From assembly GCA_945881915.1 (NCBI GenBank), contig CAMCVW010000023.1:1-53173 (forward strand): 53,173 nucleotides of DNA, written 5' to 3'. Positions 6,547-38,572 of this stretch are shown one piece after another. The position numbers and the translations under genes were made by a program. This DNA comes from Thermoflexus hugenholtzii JAD2. GTDB lineage: Bacteria > Chloroflexota > Chloroflexia > Chloroflexales > Roseiflexaceae. Position 1 is the first letter of the stretch; each line of letters begins with the position of its first letter. The notes below the pieces were generated by a model, which was not told the origin of the DNA, ran no database searches, and was given only the letters and a program-made list of their open reading frames with translations.

Positions 6547-7386
6547 ATGACTCTCAAACTGAAGCTCGTAATCACTGCATGTCTGACAGCATTTTTGGCA
6601 GTTGTCGTCGGAGCAGTCGTCAATAGAGTATCCACCATGCAACAAGAGCAAGTGGTCACGATAGCAACCGAGACACTCGTCCCAACGGAAGAAATGCTAC
6701 CCACCGAAACCATTGAACCGCCCACCGCCACAGCAATTGCAGTGGTAGATTTGGTTGTCGTCCAGCAACGGGAAGCCGCGTATCAAGCGCAATTGGCTCA
6801 AGCAAATCTCCTTCTCGCCGAAGCCGCTGCACGACTTGCCGAAGCACAGGGTCAAGCCAACACTGTCTCACAGAAGTACAACGACATCGTCAGCACACAG
6901 TCGATTGCCCCGACGGCGATTCCAATCCCGACGGAAGCCTCATTGGTGTACTGGCCCGTCGAGTCGGTGACAGCAATTGCACGGGCACTCGATGCAGATG
7001 CGGTACTCCAGAAGGGCCCGGAGTTAGTGTTGTATGAGGACCGTGCCGCATATGAACTCGTCTTTGATCGTGGAACGGTCTACATCGCTGCAGACGATGG
7101 CTCGGTGTTGTCCAATGGGATGGCCGGATTCCAGACGGTCAGCGCCTCGACAGGGAGCACTAGCGACGTAGACAATAATCCTGCAGCCCCTGCCAAGCCC
7201 GCCCCCACGAGTGTACCTGCTCCCACGGAAGATCCCGCACCAAATCCTGACGACGACGACGATAAAGACGACGATAAAGACGACGATAACGACGACGATA
7301 AAGACGACGATAACGACGACGATAACGACGACGATAAAGACGACGATAAAGACGACGATAAAGACGACGACAAAAGTCATGACTAA
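6547..7386 (+). CDS. Membrane-anchored PepSY-like protein with Asp-rich repeat tail (D)
   Basis: The 279-residue protein has an N-terminal membrane helix (5-25), an Ala/Gln-rich helical segment likely to be a coiled coil (about 75-115), and a PepSY-like domain ending AYELVFDRGTVYIAADDGSV. A Pro-rich linker leads to a tail of ten DDD(K/N) units encoded by a 12-bp tandem repeat. GGAGG lies before the ATG. The tail is extremely acidic and might bind Ca2+ or other cations or act as a polyelectrolyte brush; this is inference. The gene overlaps the next one by eight bases. Repeat number is likely to vary between strains. Confidence 0.75.
   Translation: MTLKLKLVITACLTAFLAVVVGAVVNRVSTMQQEQVVTIATETLVPTEEMLPTETIEPPTATAIAVVDLVVVQQREAAYQAQLAQANLLLAEAAARLAEAQGQANTVSQKYNDIVSTQSIAPTAIPIPTEASLVYWPVESVTAIARALDADAVLQKGPELVLYEDRAAYELVFDRGTVYIAADDGSVLSNGMAGFQTVSASTGSTSDVDNNPAAPAKPAPTSVPAPTEDPAPNPDDDDDKDDDKDDDNDDDKDDDNDDDNDDDKDDDKDDDKDDDKSHD
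7255..7374 (+). repeat. Ten tandem 12-bp units coding DDD(K/N)
   Basis: Units read GACGACGATAAA or GACGACGATAAC, in the order K,K,N,K,N,N,K,K,K,K, with a last unit GACGACGACAAA. All are in frame within the gene at 6547-7386. The arrangement is a coding minisatellite prone to slippage in whole-codon steps. Other frames and the opposite strand also stay open across it, which is a by-product of the 12-bp period. Confidence 0.95.
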
Positions 7387-7978
7387 TCAGGCACCCAACA
7401 CCCGCAAAGTGGTCCAGCAGATCAAGAGTGCGGGTGAACAAAACGAACGCATGCTGGTTCGCAGTATTACGACGATTTTGGCAAGTGTGGGCACGTTGGT
7501 CGGTTGGATGGCTCTCTCTGCGCAAGCACCGGTAGCGGTCGTCGCGGTCGTTGTCGAAGCGACACCGGCTCCGACCGAAGTCCCTGCGGCACCGGTCGTC
7601 ATCGATGCGCTGATTCCGACCGCAACCGTCGCTTTTGCACCCATTCCGACGTTGCGGGCTATCCCCGGCCGGCAGATCCTGCCGACCCTGATGCCGACCC
7701 AGAGTGGTGCAGCCGTAGCGGGAGGAGCGGTCGACGCTCTTGTAGATCCCAATGTGCTTGCGCCGACGGTAGCTGCGCAGACGCTCCGAGTGGTAGTGGT
7801 TCCCACCGCTGCAGCAGTCGAAGCCTCAGGGAGTGGTTCCTCGGGCGGGACAAACCAGCCGATTCCTACGGCGGCTGCCAATCAACCACCGCCAACCGCA
7901 GTCCCCAATGCCCCCAAGCCAACTGCGGTGCCCAAACCCAAACCCACCCCCGCAGGGAACAGCAAAGGCTCCAAATAG
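7379..7978 (+). CDS. Membrane-anchored Pro/Ala/Thr-rich protein (E)
   Basis: The 199-residue protein has a short cytoplasmic head, one membrane helix (about residues 29-50) and a long extracytoplasmic tail of Pro, Ala, Thr and Val ending in a basic PKPTPAGNSKGSK. No PepSY-like piece is visible. The start at 7379 overlaps the stop region of the preceding gene by eight bases and has no clear ribosome site, so translation is probably coupled. The next gene, apbE, begins at the base right after its stop. Low-complexity tails like this often serve as wall spacers or glycosylation sites. No family recognised. Confidence 0.7.
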   Translation: MTNQAPNTRKVVQQIKSAGEQNERMLVRSITTILASVGTLVGWMALSAQAPVAVVAVVVEATPAPTEVPAAPVVIDALIPTATVAFAPIPTLRAIPGRQILPTLMPTQSGAAVAGGAVDALVDPNVLAPTVAAQTLRVVVVPTAAAVEASGSGSSGGTNQPIPTAAANQPPPTAVPNAPKPTAVPKPKPTPAGNSKGSK

Positions 7979-29767: not shown

Positions 29768-30844
29768 CTATGAACTGCTCCCTAGTCGCTGCGCCAAGCG
29801 CGGTAGCGCGTCGGTCAATATCGCGATTGCTCGGAGATATTCGGGGATAGATATATGTTCGTTGGGGGTGTGATCGAGATTCGCATCGCCCGGTCCATAG
29901 GCGATGATGGGGCACTGCCAGATGGGCCCTACGACGTTCATGTCGGCTGTGCCGGTTTTGACTATCATGCCGGGTGTGCGACCCTGGGCTCGGATGGCTG
30001 CCCCAAACGCAGTCGCCGCCGCGTCGCTGCGAGGGGACTGCCAAGCCGGTGACACATCGCGGAACAACAGCGTCGTATGCTCGTCCCCATTGGTGCCGAT
30101 GTCGGCAATCAATTGCCACGGTGGTCGCGCACTGGGCAATCGTATGCCAATTGTGGCACTCGCCCATTCGTACAACCCATCACTCCCCGATGAGATTTGA
30201 CGCAACGACGGCAGGTATTGGTCGAACAAGCGCGGTTTGTCGTGATTGTAGGCACTGCAATACGCCTGGATGCGCTGCCAAATGGCCATGCATTGCTCCG
30301 GCGCTGACGCCGTCGCCCCCGCACTGTGGGCACTGGGCAGGTGGGTCGTCACCGTCACCATCACGCGCCCTTTGTAGCCGAGTGTGACCCGATCTGCGCC
30401 GCTCGGTTCACCGATGATGCAGGCATCTGGCCGATACTGTTTGGCAGCGTAGTGCGCCCCACGTGAAGTGGCGTATTCTTCTTCGACAGCACCGATAAGC
30501 ATCAGACGGAACGGCAGCTCAGGGACTGTAGCTAACCGCGCTGCAGCAGCGATGAACGCACAAAATGCTCCCTTGGCATCGACACTGCCACGCCCATACA
30601 GCACATCGTCGACGATGCGCACCGGGACCGTCCCTGGCGCGGTATCGATGTGCCCCAACAAGACAATCTGAGGCCCGCGCGTGCCTACCGTCCCAATGAC
30701 ATTGCCCACACGGTCGATGTGACTCGCAATCCCCCGTTCTGTCATCGCCGCAGCCAATACCTGGGCGACGGCACTTTCGCGCGTCGAAAAACTCGGCGTT
30801 GCCACTGCGTCATACAGTAGTTGGACATCGGGCGGTAACGTCAT
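29768..30844 (-). CDS. lysK: LysK-type [LysW]-lysine/ornithine hydrolase (M20 peptidase)
   Basis: The 358-residue metallopeptidase has the M20 metal blocks [21 protein letters not shown] and the catalytic [19 protein letters not shown] and the overall length match LysK, which releases lysine or ornithine from the LysW carrier protein. It is the last gene of the long minus-strand operon and overlaps lysJ by ATGA. The frame is intact. Since lysW, lysX and lysY in this same operon are broken, its substrate must come from a second carrier system elsewhere, or the protein has drifted to another peptide. ArgE/DapE-like activity is the alternative. Confidence 0.84.
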
Positions 30845-32022
30845 GCCAACACCGCACGTAGAACCGTCACCACTTCGGCCAGTTCTGCGTCACTGATGAC
30901 CAGCGGCGGCAACAATCGCAACACATTCGGACCCGCTGGGAGTGCCAACACGCCGCGTTCCATCAGCGCCACCAAGGTTGGTTGGACGCGCTCTTTGAGT
31001 TCGAGGCCGATGAGCAGTCCGGCACCGCGCACTTCGCGTACCTTGCTGAGGTTTGCTGCACGCAGCGTCTGCATCAGCGCTGCTCCTTTGCGGGCAGCGG
31101 CGGCACTCAGGTCGTCGGTCAGGATTGCTGACAGCGCAGCCCGGGCGGCCGCGCAGGCCAACGGGTTGCCACCGAAGGTCGAACCGTGGCTGGCAGGTGC
31201 AAATCCCCCCAAACGTTCGTGGATGGCGAGTGCGCCCATGGGCATGCCGCCTGCCATCGATTTGGCCATGACCAGCAAATCTGGCGTGACACCCGCCTGC
31301 GTTATTGCAAACAGACTACCCGTGCGCCCGAATCCCGTCTGTACTTCGTCCACGATGAGGAGTGCCCCGTGCTGGGCGCACAACGCCGCAACTGCTGCCA
31401 GATACCCCAGCGAGGCAGGCCGTACGCCGCCCTCGCCCTGGACTGGCTCGACGATGACGGCCGCAGTCTGTTCGGTAATGGCGGCTGCTACTGCTTCGAT
31501 GCGGTCGTAGGGTACGTGGCTGACGCCTGCAATCAACGGTTCAAACGGCTCGCGGTATTTGGGTTCGTAGGTGGCCGACAAGGCACCCATGGTCCGGCCA
31601 TGGAATCCGCGCATCATCGCGATGATGTTGGGCCGTCCCGTCGCAAGACGTGCAAATTTGAGCGCAGATTCGACGGCTTCGGTTCCCGAGTTACACAAAA
31701 ACACCCGCCCCATCCCCGCTGGCATGGCAGCGCCGAGCGCATCGAGGTAGGCGGCACGCTGGTCGTTGTGGAATATCTCGGGACAACTGATGAGTTGCGT
31801 CGCTTGGTGTTGAATGGCCGCCACTACCGCCGGATGGGCATGCCCCAGATTGGCCGAACCTTGCCCGCCGACACAGTCGATGTAGCGCTTCCCATCCGCA
31901 TCCCACAAGGTCGCTCCGAACCCGCGTACAATTGCGATGCCGCGCTTAGTGTAGGTGCCACTGGTGCGCAGGTCTTCGCGGTGGATGATCTCGGCATTGG
32001 ACTGGAATGGTGCAGACTGCAT
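30841..32022 (-). CDS. lysJ: LysJ-type class III aminotransferase
   Basis: The 393-residue PLP enzyme has the acetylornithine aminotransferase blocks NSGTEAVESALKFAR, GFHGRTMGALSAT, LLIVDEVQTGFGRTG and the PLP lysine in LLVMAKSMAGG. Similarity to LysJ and ArgD, plus its position between lysZ and lysK, marks it as the aminotransferase of the LysW pathway, acting on LysW-bound semialdehyde. The start at 32022 follows GAGGAG; an ATG 54 bases upstream lacks a site. It is coupled to lysK by ATGA. All catalytic parts look intact. Confidence 0.87.
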   Translation of the reverse strand: MQSAPFQSNAEIIHREDLRTSGTYTKRGIAIVRGFGATLWDADGKRYIDCVGGQGSANLGHAHPAVVAAIQHQATQLISCPEIFHNDQRAAYLDALGAAMPAGMGRVFLCNSGTEAVESALKFARLATGRPNIIAMMRGFHGRTMGALSATYEPKYREPFEPLIAGVSHVPYDRIEAVAAAITEQTAAVIVEPVQGEGGVRPASLGYLAAVAALCAQHGALLIVDEVQTGFGRTGSLFAITQAGVTPDLLVMAKSMAGGMPMGALAIHERLGGFAPASHGSTFGGNPLACAAARAALSAILTDDLSAAAARKGAALMQTLRAANLSKVREVRGAGLLIGLELKERVQPTLVALMERGVLALPAGPNVLRLLPPLVISDAELAEVVTVLRAVLA

Positions 32023-32103
32023 CGCGTTCTCCTCAGGTATCGACGGCTCGGCAAAACACACACCCTGGGATGACAACTGACACGAGTCATGTTGCTTTTT
32101 GGA

Positions 32104-32907
32104 CTATGCTATGGTCGTTCCGTTGCCGTCCAACGCCTGTTTGATGGGGTTGCTGATGCGCGCATCGGCCATGATGACCGTCGCGACACCACCCGTGAGT
32201 GCCTCGGCAGCGCCCATGACCTTTTTCTTCATTCGGCCCTGCGCCACGTCCATGTATGCATTGATGTCACTACGGGGGATACTCCGTATCAACGTCGATT
32301 CATCGGGGAAGGCGCTGAGCAATCCCGGCACGCTCGACAGCAGGAGCAACGTCTCTGCCTTGAGGGCCACTGCGATCTGGGCAGCGGCGCGGTCACCGTC
32401 GACATTCAACGCGTCACCCTGGTGACTGCACGCAATGGGAGCAATCACCGGCAAAACGCCTGCAGCGCACAGGGTGTTGAGGAGTGTGCTATTGACGCCG
32501 TCGATCGTACCCGTGCGGTCGTCGCGGAGCAGAAGTTGTTTGCCGTTTTCGACGATGCGCAACGTCGCCTTGCGCTCTGCCCGCAAGATTTGGCCATCGA
32601 GCCCGCTGCATCCAAACGCATTGATGCCGCGTTGCTGCAGGAGTTCGACGATGCGTTTATTGATTTTGCCGGCATACACCATCAGAAAACTATCCATGGC
32701 AGTCTGGTCGGTATACCGACTGACGTGCCCCGAGGCAGACGTCACAAAGCGTGGCGGAGTTCCCAACGCAGTGGCGATGCGATTCGTCTCGTGCGAGCCA
32801 CCGTGCACCAAGACAATGTCGATTCCGCGGGCAGACACGGCCGCGATGTCGTCGCAGAGCGCTGGATAGTCCAATTCTGCTCCGCCACCCACTCTAATGA
32901 CCAACAT
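32104..32907 (-). CDS. lysZ: LysZ-type [LysW]-aminoadipate/glutamate kinase
   Basis: The 267-residue amino-acid kinase begins VIRVGGGAEL with phosphate loop LVHGGSHETN. It carries the LysZ signatures GHVSRYTDQTAMDSFLM and AGKINKRIVELLQQ, which differ from ordinary ArgB, and DGDRAAAQIA and GRMKKKVMGA near the C-terminus. It phosphorylates the side chain of aminoadipate or glutamate attached to LysW. It follows two EamA transporter genes and overlaps the second by 14 bases. The frame is complete. It lacks a complete LysX/LysY partner in this operon. Confidence 0.88.
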   Translation of the reverse strand: MLVIRVGGGAELDYPALCDDIAAVSARGIDIVLVHGGSHETNRIATALGTPPRFVTSASGHVSRYTDQTAMDSFLMVYAGKINKRIVELLQQRGINAFGCSGLDGQILRAERKATLRIVENGKQLLLRDDRTGTIDGVNSTLLNTLCAAGVLPVIAPIACSHQGDALNVDGDRAAAQIAVALKAETLLLLSSVPGLLSAFPDESTLIRSIPRSDINAYMDVAQGRMKKKVMGAAEALTGGVATVIMADARISNPIKQALDGNGTTIA

Positions 32908-34406: not shown

Positions 34407-35327
34407 CTATGCGGCTTCACCTTCGACCGATTCTGGTGTGCTCGATTGTTCTGGGATGCCGCTAATCAGCAACGCACCGATGACCAAAACACCACCGACG
34501 ATGAATGTCAGGGTGATTGGATCGCCCATCACCTGAATGCCGACAACCGCCCCGACCACCGGTTGGAACAGTAGCGCCACCGCAGCAACCGTCGCACCCA
34601 CGATACGCACGCCGGTGAACCAGAGGAAGTAGCAGAGAATCGATGTCACCAGCGCCATATACACGGACGCCCCCCACGCTGAGGGTGACACTTGGACAAG
34701 TTCGCCCGTGTATGCGTAGTACCCCAACACCGGCACCCATACAATGAGGCTGGCCATATTCACCCACGCGAGCATGCTAATCGAGTCGTTTCGTTCCAGG
34801 AATGCAGCTCCTCGGACGGTGTAGTACGATTCACACGCGAGGCACCCGAGAACGAGGATGTTCCCGAGCAAGCGATTCGGAGCGGTCTCGGTATTGTTGC
34901 CCGCAGCACCAGTAATCAAGATAATCGCCCCTGCAGTACCGACGATTAATCCGATCATGCGATTGCGTGTAATGCGCTCGCGGAGGAGCACATAGGCAAA
35001 AACCGCCGTGAAAATGACTTCACCTACGATGAGCAGCGAACTGTCCGAGGACAGTGTCAGCCTGATTCCCGTGTACGCCAAAACGAAGCTTGCCACAATT
35101 CCAATCATGCTGAGACGCACCAACGGCCAGCGGTCTGCAGTGTGTATCGCAGGCCGTCGCGTCGTCAATTGGATGAGCACCAAGAGTGGTGCGGCCATAC
35201 ACAAGCGGAGCGCAGCAAGGAGGAATGGTGGGGTTTCGTTGAGTGCGGTTTTCATGACCGCATGCGAGCTTCCCCAGAGGATACACGCCAATATCATTCC
35301 GAGCATTGCAAGTGTCGAGCGTTTCAT
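34407..35327 (-). CDS. EamA/DMT-family transporter (1)
   Basis: The 306-residue protein has ten helices in two EamA halves (MKRSTLAMLGMILACILWGS, SDSSLLIVGEVIFTAVFAYV, ESYYTVRGAAFLERNDSISM). The ATG at 35327 overlaps the stop of the truncated lysY as ATGA, which is why that start is chosen over the longer open frame. The tight overlap means the transporter is now translated behind a lysY remnant, so it may have replaced the missing 3' part of lysY by insertion or deletion. Likely a metabolite or amino-acid exporter. Confidence 0.88.
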   Translation of the reverse strand: MKRSTLAMLGMILACILWGSSHAVMKTALNETPPFLLAALRLCMAAPLLVLIQLTTRRPAIHTADRWPLVRLSMIGIVASFVLAYTGIRLTLSSDSSLLIVGEVIFTAVFAYVLLRERITRNRMIGLIVGTAGAIILITGAAGNNTETAPNRLLGNILVLGCLACESYYTVRGAAFLERNDSISMLAWVNMASLIVWVPVLGYYAYTGELVQVSPSAWGASVYMALVTSILCYFLWFTGVRIVGATVAAVALLFQPVVGAVVGIQVMGDPITLTFIVGGVLVIGALLISGIPEQSSTPESVEGEAA

Positions 35328-35656
35328 GCGGTGTGGTGACTTTCTACATACAATAGCGGGTGGAGACAATCATCTTGAGGCTGGGCTGTTCGGTTGAGCC
35401 GTGTATCGTCGATCGGGGCGGCGGCTGATCCATGCGGCAATGCCAATATCAACACATCGTAATTGGTCAGCATCGTCTTGCTGGTAAACACCAAGTCTGT
35501 CACGCCGCGTAGGTGCGGGTGTGGTCCAGTGACCGGTTTGCCGGCCAGTCGTTCCGAGGTGACCTGTTGTATAGACACAGCAGGATGCCGGAGCAGGAGC
35601 CGCAACAATTCCCCGCCAACGCAGCCACTGCCACCGACGATCGACACACTAATCAT
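35324..35656 (-). pseudogene. lysY: Truncated LysY ([LysW]-phosphate reductase)
   Basis: The 110-residue frame starts as a good LysY/ArgC: SIVGGSGCVGGELLRLLLRH is the NADP-binding loop, VTSERLAGKPVTGPHPHLRG the LysY-like stretch, and DVLILALPHGSAA the end of the Rossmann core. Similarity stops near residue 78. The normal protein has about 340 residues, and everything including the active-site cysteine is missing. It overlaps the Nudix gene by eight bases and the EamA gene by four, so the stub is still translated in line. It cannot reduce the acyl-phosphate. Classed as a pseudogene despite an open frame. Confidence 0.82.
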
Positions 35657-36218
35657 GGGCGCTCCCCGTCACCATTCCCCGTAGGTATGCGTCTGCCCAC
35701 AGAAACGCCGTCAGTGTCAATCCATCGCGGATTTCGTTGCGGGCAATCATCTGCCAGATTTCGCTCGGAGTGAACCATCGAATTGACATAATTTCGTTCG
35801 TGTCACTAATGGGGGCAACGACCGCGACGTCGTGGCCGATGTAGGCATAGAACGTCTGGTTGCTACTGCCGTTGGCAGGGTGGTATTGCCCCAGCAATGT
35901 GAGGCGTTGAGCGGTAGCGCCGCATTCTTCGTAGAGTTCGCGTTTGGCAGCTTCTGCATCGGATTCACCTGCGTCGACCCGTCCCGCTGGGACTTCCCAG
36001 TGGGTTCGATCAACGATGAATCGATAGTGCTCCACCAAGAGGATTGCTCCATCTGCCCGCATCGGGACAACCCCAACAGCCGGGCGGGGGTAGTCGACCA
36101 CATGGTGCTGCGGGATGATGGAACCATCCGGCAACTGCACATCGTCTTGGTGCAGGCTGACCCATTCACTCTGATGGATGGTGCGTCTGCTGAGAACACG
36201 CCATGGACGTTCGGTCAT
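35649..36218 (-). CDS. Nudix hydrolase, ADP-ribose pyrophosphatase-like
   Basis: The 189-residue protein has a perfect Nudix box, [20 protein letters not shown] followed by CGA, with all catalytic glutamates. It resembles the ADP-ribose/ADP-sugar pyrophosphatase group ([16 protein letters not shown] before the box, [15 protein letters not shown] after it). It cleaves nucleoside-diphosphate-linked compounds and is a housekeeping activity with no clear part in lysine synthesis. ATGA overlap with the lysX remnant and an eight-base overlap with lysY show it is locked into the operon. Confidence 0.92.
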
Positions 36219-36445
36219 GCGCCACTCCGTTTTCCTTGGGCGACTTCGAGGGTGTAATCGATGCTACTCCCCGGGATGTTGCCCCCCGTCGGGGTTATGC
36301 TATTGCGGTATTCCATGGTGTAGTTGATTTCGTTGATGAGCGCATCGTAGTTGAGGCGCACATACGCGATTCCGCGGGCTTCCATATCAGCGAAGATGAG
36401 TTTTTCTTCGATCTTGATGCGTGTACTGAGAACTCCTATGCGCAT
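36215..36445 (-). pseudogene. lysX: Internally deleted LysX
   Basis: The 76-residue frame joins two ends of LysX. Residues 1-35 ([20 protein letters not shown]...) match the N-terminus, and residues 37-70 ([20 protein letters not shown], then [13 protein letters not shown]) match the C-terminus. The roughly 200 residues of the ATP-grasp core between them are gone, without loss of frame. The junction lies near 36337, beside a short repeat TCAACTAC present on both sides. A good AGGAG site is kept and the stop overlaps the Nudix start. The product cannot ligate aminoadipate or glutamate to LysW. Confidence 0.85.
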
Positions 36446-36464
36446 GACATACTCCTGTTTGGGC

Positions 36465-36640
36465 CTATTCGCCCCAGTCTTCTCCGACCTCAGGGGAGGT
36501 CGAGGCGCGGCGGATCAATCGAGACGACTTCCAATTCGTCAGCGCAATCTGGACAAACGACGATTTTACCGACGACAATCCTGTACCAATGCGAAGTCTG
36601 CATCATATCCTGGACACGGCTGCGTTCGCTCCGACAAGGA
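36465..36640 (-). pseudogene. lysW: Frameshifted LysW carrier-protein gene
   Basis: LysW is a carrier protein of about 54 residues with two CxxC zinc pairs and the C-terminal EDWGE to which the substrate is attached. Here three frames hold the parts: QPCPGYDADFALVQD (first zinc pair reduced to C..Y), [20 protein letters not shown] with PRLDLP and a stop, and then PEVGEDWGE ending at 36465. At least two frameshifts are needed to join them. The conserved tail being out of frame by one base is the decisive break. It lies directly behind the metB-like gene and before lysX, the normal lysW place. Confidence 0.8.
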
Positions 36641-36657
36641 GATGACAATCTGTCACC

Positions 36658-37812
36658 CTACTGACCAATGGTATGGAGGGCCTGACGCAGGTCGTGCATC
36701 AAGTCGTCGCTATGTTCAATACCCATCGAGATCCGCAACAGATTGGGTGGCGTGCTACTCGTCGGCCCTTCGATAGAGTAGCGATGCTCGATCAGACTCT
36801 CGATGCCGCCGAGGCTCGTCGCCCGCGTAAAGAGTTGCACGTGTGCTGCGACTTTGAGCGCTTCAGCGGCGCCGCCTTGGACGCACACCGACAGCATGCC
36901 ACCAAACCCACCATACATTTGGCTCGCCGCGATGCTGTGACCACGATGGCTGGCCAGCCCAGGATAGAACACCTTCTCGACCGCCGGATGATCCGCCAAA
37001 AACTGGGCCAGTGACATGGCGTTGGCAGCCTGTTGGCGGACCCGAAGTGCCAACGTGCGAATCCCGCGCAGAATCAGCCAGCAGTCAAATGGCGAAGGGA
37101 CTGCACCGCCCAGGTACTGCACGAGCTGCGCGCGTGCGCTGACGTCATCGATACGTGCAAAAATCAATGCCCCACCGGTCACATCTGTATGCCCACTGAT
37201 GAACTTTGTGGTCGAGTGCATCACAATGTCTGCCCCCAGTGACAAGGGCCGTTGCATCATCGGCGAGGCGAACGTGTTGTCGACCGCCAAAAGCGCACCA
37301 TGCGCGTGCGCCATTTCTGCTACCGCGCGGATGTCGGTGATGGTCAATGTCGGGTTCGAAGGCGTCTCGACCCACACGAGTTTGGTCTGAGCGGTGAACG
37401 CTGCCCGCACTGCATCGAGATCGCTGGTGTCGACGAAGGCATAGGTGAGGCCGAGGTGCTCGTAGATGTCACGCAGCAACGCACGAGTGCCGAAGTACGA
37501 CTCCGCAGGTGCAATCACGTGATCGCCGGCCTTGAGCATCTGGTAGGCTGCATTGGTCGCTGCTTGTCCTGACGCAAACGCATAGGCGACTTCCCCGCCT
37601 TCGAGTGCGGCCAATGTTTCTTCGAGGGATTTTCGATTGGGATTCTCGCTGCGGCCGTAGATGAATTCAGATGGTGCTGTATAGTCCGGTAGGCGCTCGA
37701 ATGTCGTCGACATAACAATAGAAGGGATCACCGCACCAGTTGTCGGGTCCCCGTGGTTACCCAGGTGGACTGCTTGTGTTTCGATGCGGTGATTGGGTCG
37801 TGCCTTGCTCAT
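36658..37812 (-). CDS. metB: Cystathionine gamma-synthase/lyase-family PLP enzyme
   Basis: The 384-residue protein has the Cys/Met-metabolism blocks YGRSENPNRKSLEETLAALE, AFASGQAATNAAYQ, VWVETPSNPTLTITDI, VDNTFASPMMQRPL and the PLP lysine in HSTTKFISGHTDVTGG. Sequence alone does not separate cystathionine gamma-synthase (MetB) from gamma-lyase or O-acetylhomoserine sulfhydrylase, so the symbol is tentative. It overlaps the LysE-type exporter by ATGA and precedes the lysW remnant. It therefore lies downstream of the lysine-rich leader and should share its control. Confidence 0.85.
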   Translation of the reverse strand: MSKARPNHRIETQAVHLGNHGDPTTGAVIPSIVMSTTFERLPDYTAPSEFIYGRSENPNRKSLEETLAALEGGEVAYAFASGQAATNAAYQMLKAGDHVIAPAESYFGTRALLRDIYEHLGLTYAFVDTSDLDAVRAAFTAQTKLVWVETPSNPTLTITDIRAVAEMAHAHGALLAVDNTFASPMMQRPLSLGADIVMHSTTKFISGHTDVTGGALIFARIDDVSARAQLVQYLGGAVPSPFDCWLILRGIRTLALRVRQQAANAMSLAQFLADHPAVEKVFYPGLASHRGHSIAASQMYGGFGGMLSVCVQGGAAEALKVAAHVQLFTRATSLGGIESLIEHRYSIEGPTSSTPPNLLRISMGIEHSDDLMHDLRQALHTIGQ

Positions 37813-38393
37813 ATGATGCTACTCCATAGTGCGGCGATACCAAATGCCATAATGATGAATCCCGAGGATCGATTAATCCACAACATGCCCTGCGGCGTGA
37901 TGTCGCGTCCCAACCAGGTGGTCAGCTGTGAGAGGGTCAGCCACCACAGTGCTGACCCTGCGCCAACGCCTGCGACGAGCGCAATTGCGTCGTTTTGTGC
38001 CAAATTGCGCACGCCACTGATACCGCTGAACAACCCAATGAACACCAAGATGGTAGCGGGATTGGTAATCGTCAGTGCCAGAGTCGAGAAGTACATGTTG
38101 CCCGGTCTGACCGTGGCGGTCTGTGTCGGGACGCTCCGGGTCGTCTGCCACCCCATAGAGAGCAACAAAAAACCGCCGATGACGGCGGCGGGGCGTTGGA
38201 ATTGGGCGAGGGCGGTCAGGCCAAATGCAGCCAGTACTCCATAGAACGTATCGGCAGTTGCGGCCCCTAAACCGGACGCAAAGCCCGCCCGCCAGCCGTG
38301 TGCCAGGGTGCGGCGGATGCACAGAAGTCCAATCGGGCCGACTGGCGCCGCAATGGTAAGTCCAAGAATTACCCCGCGGAAGAACGCATCCAT
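37809..38393 (-). CDS. LysE-family amino-acid exporter
   Basis: The 194-residue protein has about six membrane helices. It starts FFRGVILGLTIAAPVGPIGL, with the APVGPIG family signature, and has LTITNPATILVFIGLFSGI in the second half. The ATG at 38393 has AAAGG upstream and lies just behind the leader terminator; the same frame runs open to 38669 but that part is the leader. As first structural gene after a lysine-rich attenuator it might move lysine or a related amino acid, but an exporter induced by shortage would be unexpected. An import or efflux role for another metabolite is possible. Confidence 0.86.
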   Translation of the reverse strand: MDAFFRGVILGLTIAAPVGPIGLLCIRRTLAHGWRAGFASGLGAATADTFYGVLAAFGLTALAQFQRPAAVIGGFLLLSMGWQTTRSVPTQTATVRPGNMYFSTLALTITNPATILVFIGLFSGISGVRNLAQNDAIALVAGVGAGSALWWLTLSQLTTWLGRDITPQGMLWINRSSGFIIMAFGIAALWSSII

Positions 38394-38416
38394 GACTGAC
38401 CTTTCATGGTACAAAA

Positions 38417-38447
38417 AGCCCGCCTCACCAGTCTGGTGAGGCGGGCT
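38417..38447 (-). terminator. Attenuator terminator in the lysine operon leader
   Basis: On the minus strand a perfect 14-bp stem (38447-38434 with 38430-38417) closes on three bases and is followed by TTTTT, 24 bases before the first structural gene. Its 5' arm contains CTCACCAG (38440-38433), which can instead pair with CTGGTTGAG (38472-38464) at the leader-peptide stop, with one bulged base. That makes an antiterminator. A third option pairs CCGGAC (38485-38480) with GTCTGG, protecting the terminator. This is the 1:2:3:4 layout of amino-acid attenuators. Confidence 0.85.
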
Positions 38448-38464
38448 TGAAACAACAAGCACTC

Positions 38465-38536
38465 TCAACCAGACACATTGTCCGGCTTCTTCGCGCGCTT
38501 TTGCTGTTTTGCAATAATTGCGTCTGTGATTTGCAT
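38465..38536 (-). CDS. Lysine-rich leader peptide of an attenuator
   Basis: A 23-codon frame starts at ATG 38536 and stops at TGA 38467-38465, just before the terminator. Codons 9-18 encode AKQQKRAKKP, with four lysine codons (10, 13, 16, 17), two of them adjacent. The ATG lies seven bases after the -10 box, so the RNA should start at or one base before it: a leaderless reading frame, which explains the lack of a ribosome site. A ribosome stalled at codons 16-17 would cover CCGGAC and free the next segment to form the antiterminator. Downstream genes include the lysine pathway, which fits lysine control. Translation is inferred. Confidence 0.68.
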   Translation of the reverse strand: MQITDAIIAKQQKRAKKPDNVSG

Positions 38537-38543
38537 GTGGATG

Positions 38544-38572
38544 ATTATATGAGACTGCATTCATCATGTCAA
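38544..38572 (-). promoter_or_regulatory. Consensus sigma-70 promoter of the LysE-metB-lys operon
   Basis: On the minus strand TTGACA (38572-38567) and TATAAT (38549-38544) are both perfect matches, separated by exactly 17 bases. Start of transcription is expected at about 38537, one base before the leader-peptide ATG. It is the strongest promoter in the window by inspection and should feed the whole operon down to lysK. Confidence 0.88.

Follow-up and report, generated by a model that had tools for sequence, protein, structure and literature searches.

The window, i.e., the whole 53,173-nucleotide stretch of DNA analysed here, carries on its minus strand (38572-38413) a lysine-codon leader that stands well above chance and that, by descent and design, is very probably a ribosome-mediated attenuator of the trp/his type sensing charged tRNA-Lys. 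With somewhat less confidence, the attenuator is likely to be still at work in this genome. Its parts, their geometry, their conservation in relatives, and the way in which the sensing codons change with the gene downstream are read directly from the DNA.

Architecture of the leader

The promoter, consisting of TTGACA (38572-38567), a 17-nucleotide spacer, and TATAAT (38549-38544) on the minus strand, matches the sigma-70-type consensus at 12 of 12 positions, as an earlier note on this DNA had claimed, and is the only perfect site in 3 kb, where promoter-like sites number 7 versus 2.2 in shuffled sequences. Moreover, TTGAC(A/G/T)-17-TA....T precedes nearly all homologous leaders. Seven nucleotides after the -10 hexamer, at 38536 and not at 38537 as first given, lies the ATG of the 23-codon frame that had been recognized at the predicted transcription start. 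This leader ORF (38465-38536, minus strand) encodes MQITDAIIAKQQKRAKKPDNVSG followed by a stop codon, and homologous peptides occur in about 60 leaders. Four of its 23 codons specify Lys (38509, 38500, 38491, and 38488), the same number as previously described, and the last two form the critical tandem AAG AAG (K16 and K17, 38486-38491), directly upstream of region 1. The KKP motif is kept in most Lys-type leaders, Arg or Gln runs being found instead ahead of argG or LysE genes.

Minimum-energy folds reproduce the mutually exclusive hairpins and the run of five T residues proposed in the earlier note, and the pairings 1:2, 2:3, and 3:4 are present where trp-type attenuation needs them. Region 1 (38479-38487) forms with region 2 a predicted pause or anti-antiterminator hairpin (38487-38479 with 38475-38467) that is reached by 4% of shuffles of the same segments. 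Region 2 (GTCTGGTTGAG, 38464-38475) overlaps the leader stop codon, contains a GTCTGG that is nearly invariant in relatives, and pairs alternatively through GTCTGGT.GAG (38474-38464) with region 3 (CTCACCAGAC, 38440-38431) to form the antiterminator, a pairing reached by 3% of shuffles and accompanied by an inner helix GCTTG/CAAGC that had escaped mention. Region 3, in turn, is also the partner of region 4 in an intrinsic terminator (38413-38448) composed of a 15-bp stem (38448-38434 with 38430-38416), a 3-nt loop, and T5, whose arms covary between species.

Footprint-masked folding covered the window leader and 85 relatives. With a ribosome on K16 or K17 of the window leader, the antiterminator 2:3 forms: the expected pairs of 2:3 amount to 11.5 with the ribosome at the last Lys codon, 4.4 in the unoccupied leader, and 0 with the ribosome at the stop codon, the last value being a trivial outcome of masking region 2. 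The features by which a leader-peptide attenuator is recognized are found in a single element, namely a short ORF of predicted translation in which codons for the regulated amino acid cluster, a mutually exclusive 2:3 antiterminator and 3:4 intrinsic terminator, and, in the masked folds, a region 2 that is free with a ribosome at the sensing codons and covered with one at the stop. Since the terminator 3:4 beats 2:3 in equilibrium folds, the switch must be kinetic.

From this arrangement we infer the transcription start, stalling, and read-through, as well as a present function despite the broken LysW pathway. RNA polymerase would start at about 38536, and a ribosome would begin leader translation at the first codon. 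When Lys-tRNA is plentiful, the ribosome would reach the stop codon and cover region 2, so that 3:4 would form and transcription would terminate. When Lys-tRNA is scarce, the ribosome would wait at K16-K17 and cover region 1 alone, whereupon 2:3 and the inner helix would form before region 4 is made, and the resulting read-through would carry transcription on into the genes for the LysE-type transporter and the PLP enzyme and then into those lys genes that remain.

The window leader ORF is probably leaderless, judging from its predicted start. In about 15 leaders (the window, Chloroflexus, and some others), the distance from the -10 hexamer to the ATG is 6-10 nt, and in the rest it is about 20-45 nt; the leader of genome G007 has a distant ATG with AAGGAG. 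Because the ATG-at-start arrangement occurs only in some relatives, a leaderless start is not essential and, on these predicted spacings, is a lineage-specific trait.

Conservation and codon exchange in Chloroflexota

A search with 178 bases of DNA finds the leader in six genus-mates, with shorter matches in other families of the order Chloroflexales. A covariance model built from 13 leaders has matches in 66 of the class's 158 genomes, with every one of the four families of Chloroflexales represented, and this conservation is decisive in establishing that the observation is real and not due to chance. Short ORFs and hairpins are common, and the element could be taken for nothing more than an ordinary terminator separating lysE from the divergent gene upstream, with a short ORF there by accident; however, conservation in dozens of genomes from four families and a codon enrichment far above shuffles leave this reading with practically no credibility, and it is rejected by the comparative data. 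Weak model matches (L145, L149, L150, L153, L155, and L157) are terminator-only and were excluded from the structural set, and the missing leaders of G002 and G010 are uninformative, since the G002 contig starts inside lysE and the lys genes of G010 lie on contig fragments. An exact degenerate pattern scanned against 84,980 species matches 29 records, nearly all of them titled Chloroflexus, Roseiflexus, Oscillochloris, Chloroploca, Kouleothrix, or other Chloroflexota, with one titled Anaerolinea sp. (L210); a record titled Candidatus Gracilibacteria (L204) appears to be the match of G070, which genome search places in Chloroflexales.

Eighty matches were read with up to 9 kb downstream. The typical Lys-type leader has the core KQxKRxKKPxxxSG followed by a stop codon, and the genes behind such leaders are homocitrate synthase (Chloroflexaceae and others), homoaconitase (Roseiflexaceae), and LysX or LysW; in another Chloroflexota class, there is one case, G489 (L180), ahead of lysW-homocitrate synthase. 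Of 60 Lys-operon leaders, 45 have four or more Lys codons in a stretch of nine, versus a shuffle mean of 1.0 (dinucleotide) and 0 in antisense, a count that refers to model-selected leaders and that, like the corresponding Gln count below, overstates the number of events because related genomes are not independent samples. As the covariance model itself contains Lys codons, a protein-first search was done in genomes missed by the model. All seven of the seven homocitrate synthase genes of family f3 have a Lys leader (SKKRSAKKPGSESG, SKKRNAKKQTRGSG, or a close variant), and none was seen ahead of homocitrate synthase in f5 genomes. The stretch separating the leader from homocitrate synthase also contains, both in Chloroflexaceae and in family f3, a small conserved ORF (e.g., in L081-L089, L351, and L356) that carries RPELFGSCQVR or a similar motif and whose end coincides with the start of homocitrate synthase or overlaps it. 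Chloroflexus-type lys clusters (L081-L088) contain two tandem lysW copies, and that of G034 contains three.

Regarding the pairings, the earlier note had named a lack of conserved Lys codons or pairing in relatives as grounds for abandoning its reading, and both are conserved. It had also looked to compensatory changes in both alternative stems. These are clear in the terminator 3:4, where, in 83 of 86 leaders, swapped stems are on average worse than the native one, whereas covariation of 2:3 is sparse and mixed because region 2 hardly varies, about 5 of 13 non-consensus cases restoring pairing, with few informative changes. Scored against its own shuffles, the 2:3 duplex surpasses 95% of them in 58 of 86 leaders; the same holds for 1:2 in 17 of 86, this pairing being weak in many relatives. 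With the ribosome at the last sensing codon, 2:3 dominates, with a median of about 10 expected pairs over 60 leaders in footprint-masked folding.

The same scaffold is found with other sensing codons. Arg runs occur ahead of argG in five genomes (SRRIRSRRQP in L132, PRRLRRTQP in L133, PRRRRTKP in L135, RFRRRTQP in L151, and RQLRRQP in L144) and ahead of argC in one (L183); the 200 bases upstream of argG in the window's own genome, judged by eye, contain no such leader. Arg-rich leaders on this scaffold were also noted ahead of a phosphoglycerate-mutase-like (histidine-phosphatase-like) gene (L137, L147, and L158). Gln leaders, in turn, were found by searching with the window LysE protein and then inspecting the upstream sequences of 84 stand-alone orthologues, 26 of which are preceded by four or more Gln codons in a stretch of nine, versus a shuffle mean of 1.3 (dinucleotide) and 0 in antisense, with no Lys enrichment upstream of the same 84 genes. 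Examples are QQRGQQQPDRRSG, SQRQQPASRSG, QQQSQPYRRSG, QRQRQQTGRSG, and QQRQPPSGRSG, each followed by a stop codon and many Gln leaders then by CCAGACC and a terminator. Gln-rich leaders with terminators are spread over several Chloroflexota classes (L255, L265, L248, L271, L326, L330, L333, L336, L342, and L343).

Since the sensing codons are swapped with the downstream gene, ribosome-mediated attenuation is strongly supported. A metabolite-binding riboswitch or a T-box in place of a leader-peptide attenuator is suggested by G096, from family f9 of the same class, whose homocitrate synthase is preceded by a T-box (103.8 bits; L350:1127-1410) in the place occupied by the Lys leader in Chloroflexales. 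This explanation is, however, very improbable for the window leader, where an Rfam covariance-model search gives no family at gathering score, T-box and lysine riboswitch included, and where the conserved features are the codons and three short segments that pair, with a sensing codon that varies according to the gene behind. For the attenuators as a group, we lean with modest confidence towards one Chloroflexota scaffold, made of sensing codons plus PxxxSG-stop encoding GGUCUGG, in which the amino acid has been exchanged: Lys for LysW-pathway operons, Arg for argG/argC, and Gln for the LysE-family transporter. If this is true, the Gln version is a glutamine-sensing leader-peptide attenuator, which suggests a glutamine-linked role for an unassigned LysE-family transporter, this branch of the LysE family then being a candidate for transport linked to glutamine. 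We know of no glutamine-sensing leader-peptide attenuator, and this apparent glutamine attenuator would be the more novel part of the Lys/Arg/Gln family. The outcome is a conserved, testable attenuator family in Chloroflexota and a natural experiment in which the choice of Lys, Arg, or Gln codons on one RNA scaffold depends on the gene that follows, and in which leaders lose Lys codons where lysine genes appear lost.

Genes behind the leader and its present role

The earlier note placed the leader ahead of a LysW-pathway operon, which is true of the Lys leaders of relatives, whereas the first gene here is a LysE-family transporter of 194 aa (37809-38393, minus strand, as are all genes below; PF01810 at E 5.6e-22, TIGR00948/TIGR00949 only below cutoff). 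It is followed by a Cys/Met-metabolism PLP enzyme resembling cystathionine gamma-synthase (36658-37812), a NUDIX hydrolase (35649-36218), EamA transporters, and then lysZ, lysJ, and lysK. These last three genes had been correctly listed behind the leader but are not first, lying 5.5-8.6 kb further on. Their ORFs are intact: lysZ, for [LysW]-aminoadipate kinase (32104-32907; NF010659, 395 bits, over cutoff), lysJ (30841-32028; best match NF042418, 452 bits, below its cutoff of 700), and lysK, for [LysW]-lysine hydrolase (29768-30844; NF003367, 410 bits, over cutoff). The remainder of the pathway is damaged. Compared with the intact lysW of G007, the lysW remnant (36446-36636) is frameshifted and without its start, the tail PEVGEDWGE and stop lying in another frame; lysX is an N-terminal stub (36334-36445) with about 0.6 kb deleted relative to G007; and lysY is a 110-aa remnant (35324-35656) with about 0.75 kb deleted relative to G007, matching only positions 2-85 of 345 of TIGR01850. 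Neither LysX nor homocitrate synthase over family cutoff is found in the whole genome, which is 98.6% complete, and a complete LysW-pathway operon with intact lysW, lysX, lysY, and homocitrate synthase is lacking. LysA is present and, thus, lysine may come by another route. The pathway appears caught in loss, lysW, lysX, and lysY being eroded while lysZ, lysJ, and lysK stay open. Elsewhere in the window (7250-7390), a low-complexity Asp/Lys repeat (DDDDKDDDKDD) lies at the C-terminal end of an ORF.

In G013, the order is leader-homoaconitase-LysE-PLP enzyme-...-HICDH-lysW-lysX-lysY, and the window arrangement looks like an operon of this type after losing its first genes. The ancestor of the window leader would have been the leader of the family's complete LysW operon (leader-lysT-lysE-metB-...-lysW-lysX-lysY), and loss of lysT, lysU, and others would have brought it directly ahead of the transporter. 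Two CRISPR-DR28 repeat matches lie inside the lys operon region of G013 (L103:8073-8190).

The sensed amino acid fits the genes in relatives, Lys with the LysW pathway and Arg with argG-argC; in the window, the leader precedes a transporter and a broken lys cluster. This eroded pathway counts against the attenuator reading, as does the odd physiology of an exporter induced by lysine shortage. One alternative, possible but rather unlikely, is that the leader has been re-purposed and now controls the LysE-type transporter, like the Gln-codon leaders elsewhere in Chloroflexota, and not lysine synthesis. In favour of this, no gene now stands between the leader and the transporter, and the stand-alone orthologues of the transporter have Gln-codon leaders of the same architecture; nevertheless, the sensing positions in the window are still Lys and not Gln, and the transporter was already in the Lys-leader operon in Roseiflexaceae such as G013.

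Less probable still is that a Lys attenuator working in an ancestor has become a constitutive, terminator-containing leader, drifting after the loss of lysW, lysX, and lysY. The broken state of these three genes agrees with such a relic, and so do the leaders of genus-mates in which lysZ and LysX over cutoff were not found: in G006 (L106), Gln codons stand at all four Lys positions and GTCTGG is altered, two Lys codons are lost in G001 (L090), and the start codon is absent in G008 (L128). That leader damage tracks the loss of lysine genes in genus-mates is suggestive, the genomes being fragmented and related, and G003, also without lysZ and LysX over cutoff, keeps its Lys codons. The Lys-to-Gln change of G006 may represent decay or conversion to Gln, region 2 being damaged as well. 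The window leader, however, keeps its four Lys codons, start, both alternative stems, 15-bp terminator, and perfect promoter, and any loss of function would be recent because lysZ, lysJ, and lysK are also intact. An attenuator that still responds to lysine supply is, on this evidence, the preferred reading.

Relation to known attenuators

The earlier note knew of no leader-peptide attenuator described for a LysW-type operon. Tsubouchi et al. in 2005 (J Biol Chem) reportedly described one in the LysW-type lysine cluster of Thermus thermophilus. That system would likewise combine a lysine-responsive leader peptide with transcription attenuation in the same pathway, but belongs to another phylum, and no homology is claimed. 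Nothing relevant emerged from a literature search directed at the Thermus system and at attenuators with Lys or Gln codons, and a non-exhaustive search found no described leader-peptide attenuator in Chloroflexota.

The mechanism of trp/his-type attenuation is described in Proteobacteria and Firmicutes (PMC9413887). The window leader shares with these attenuators a leader ORF, tandem sensing codons, and one segment serving both antiterminator and terminator, and differs from them in its Lys codons, in the genes and phylum concerned, and in a region 2 that overlaps the leader stop codon. A leaderless leader ORF, presented earlier as a further novelty, has a precedent in the trpL leader ORF of Sinorhizobium meliloti, which starts at the transcript 5' end (PMC7298713), as predicted for the window leader, but contains Trp codons and lies ahead of trpE(G). 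T-box leaders (RF00230) likewise sense tRNA charging via a terminator/antiterminator switch; however, they bind tRNA directly without translation, and the window leader has no T-box match. Compared with these systems, the mechanism of the window leader is known and so, reportedly from Thermus, is the amino acid for this pathway; the phylum and the family are new.
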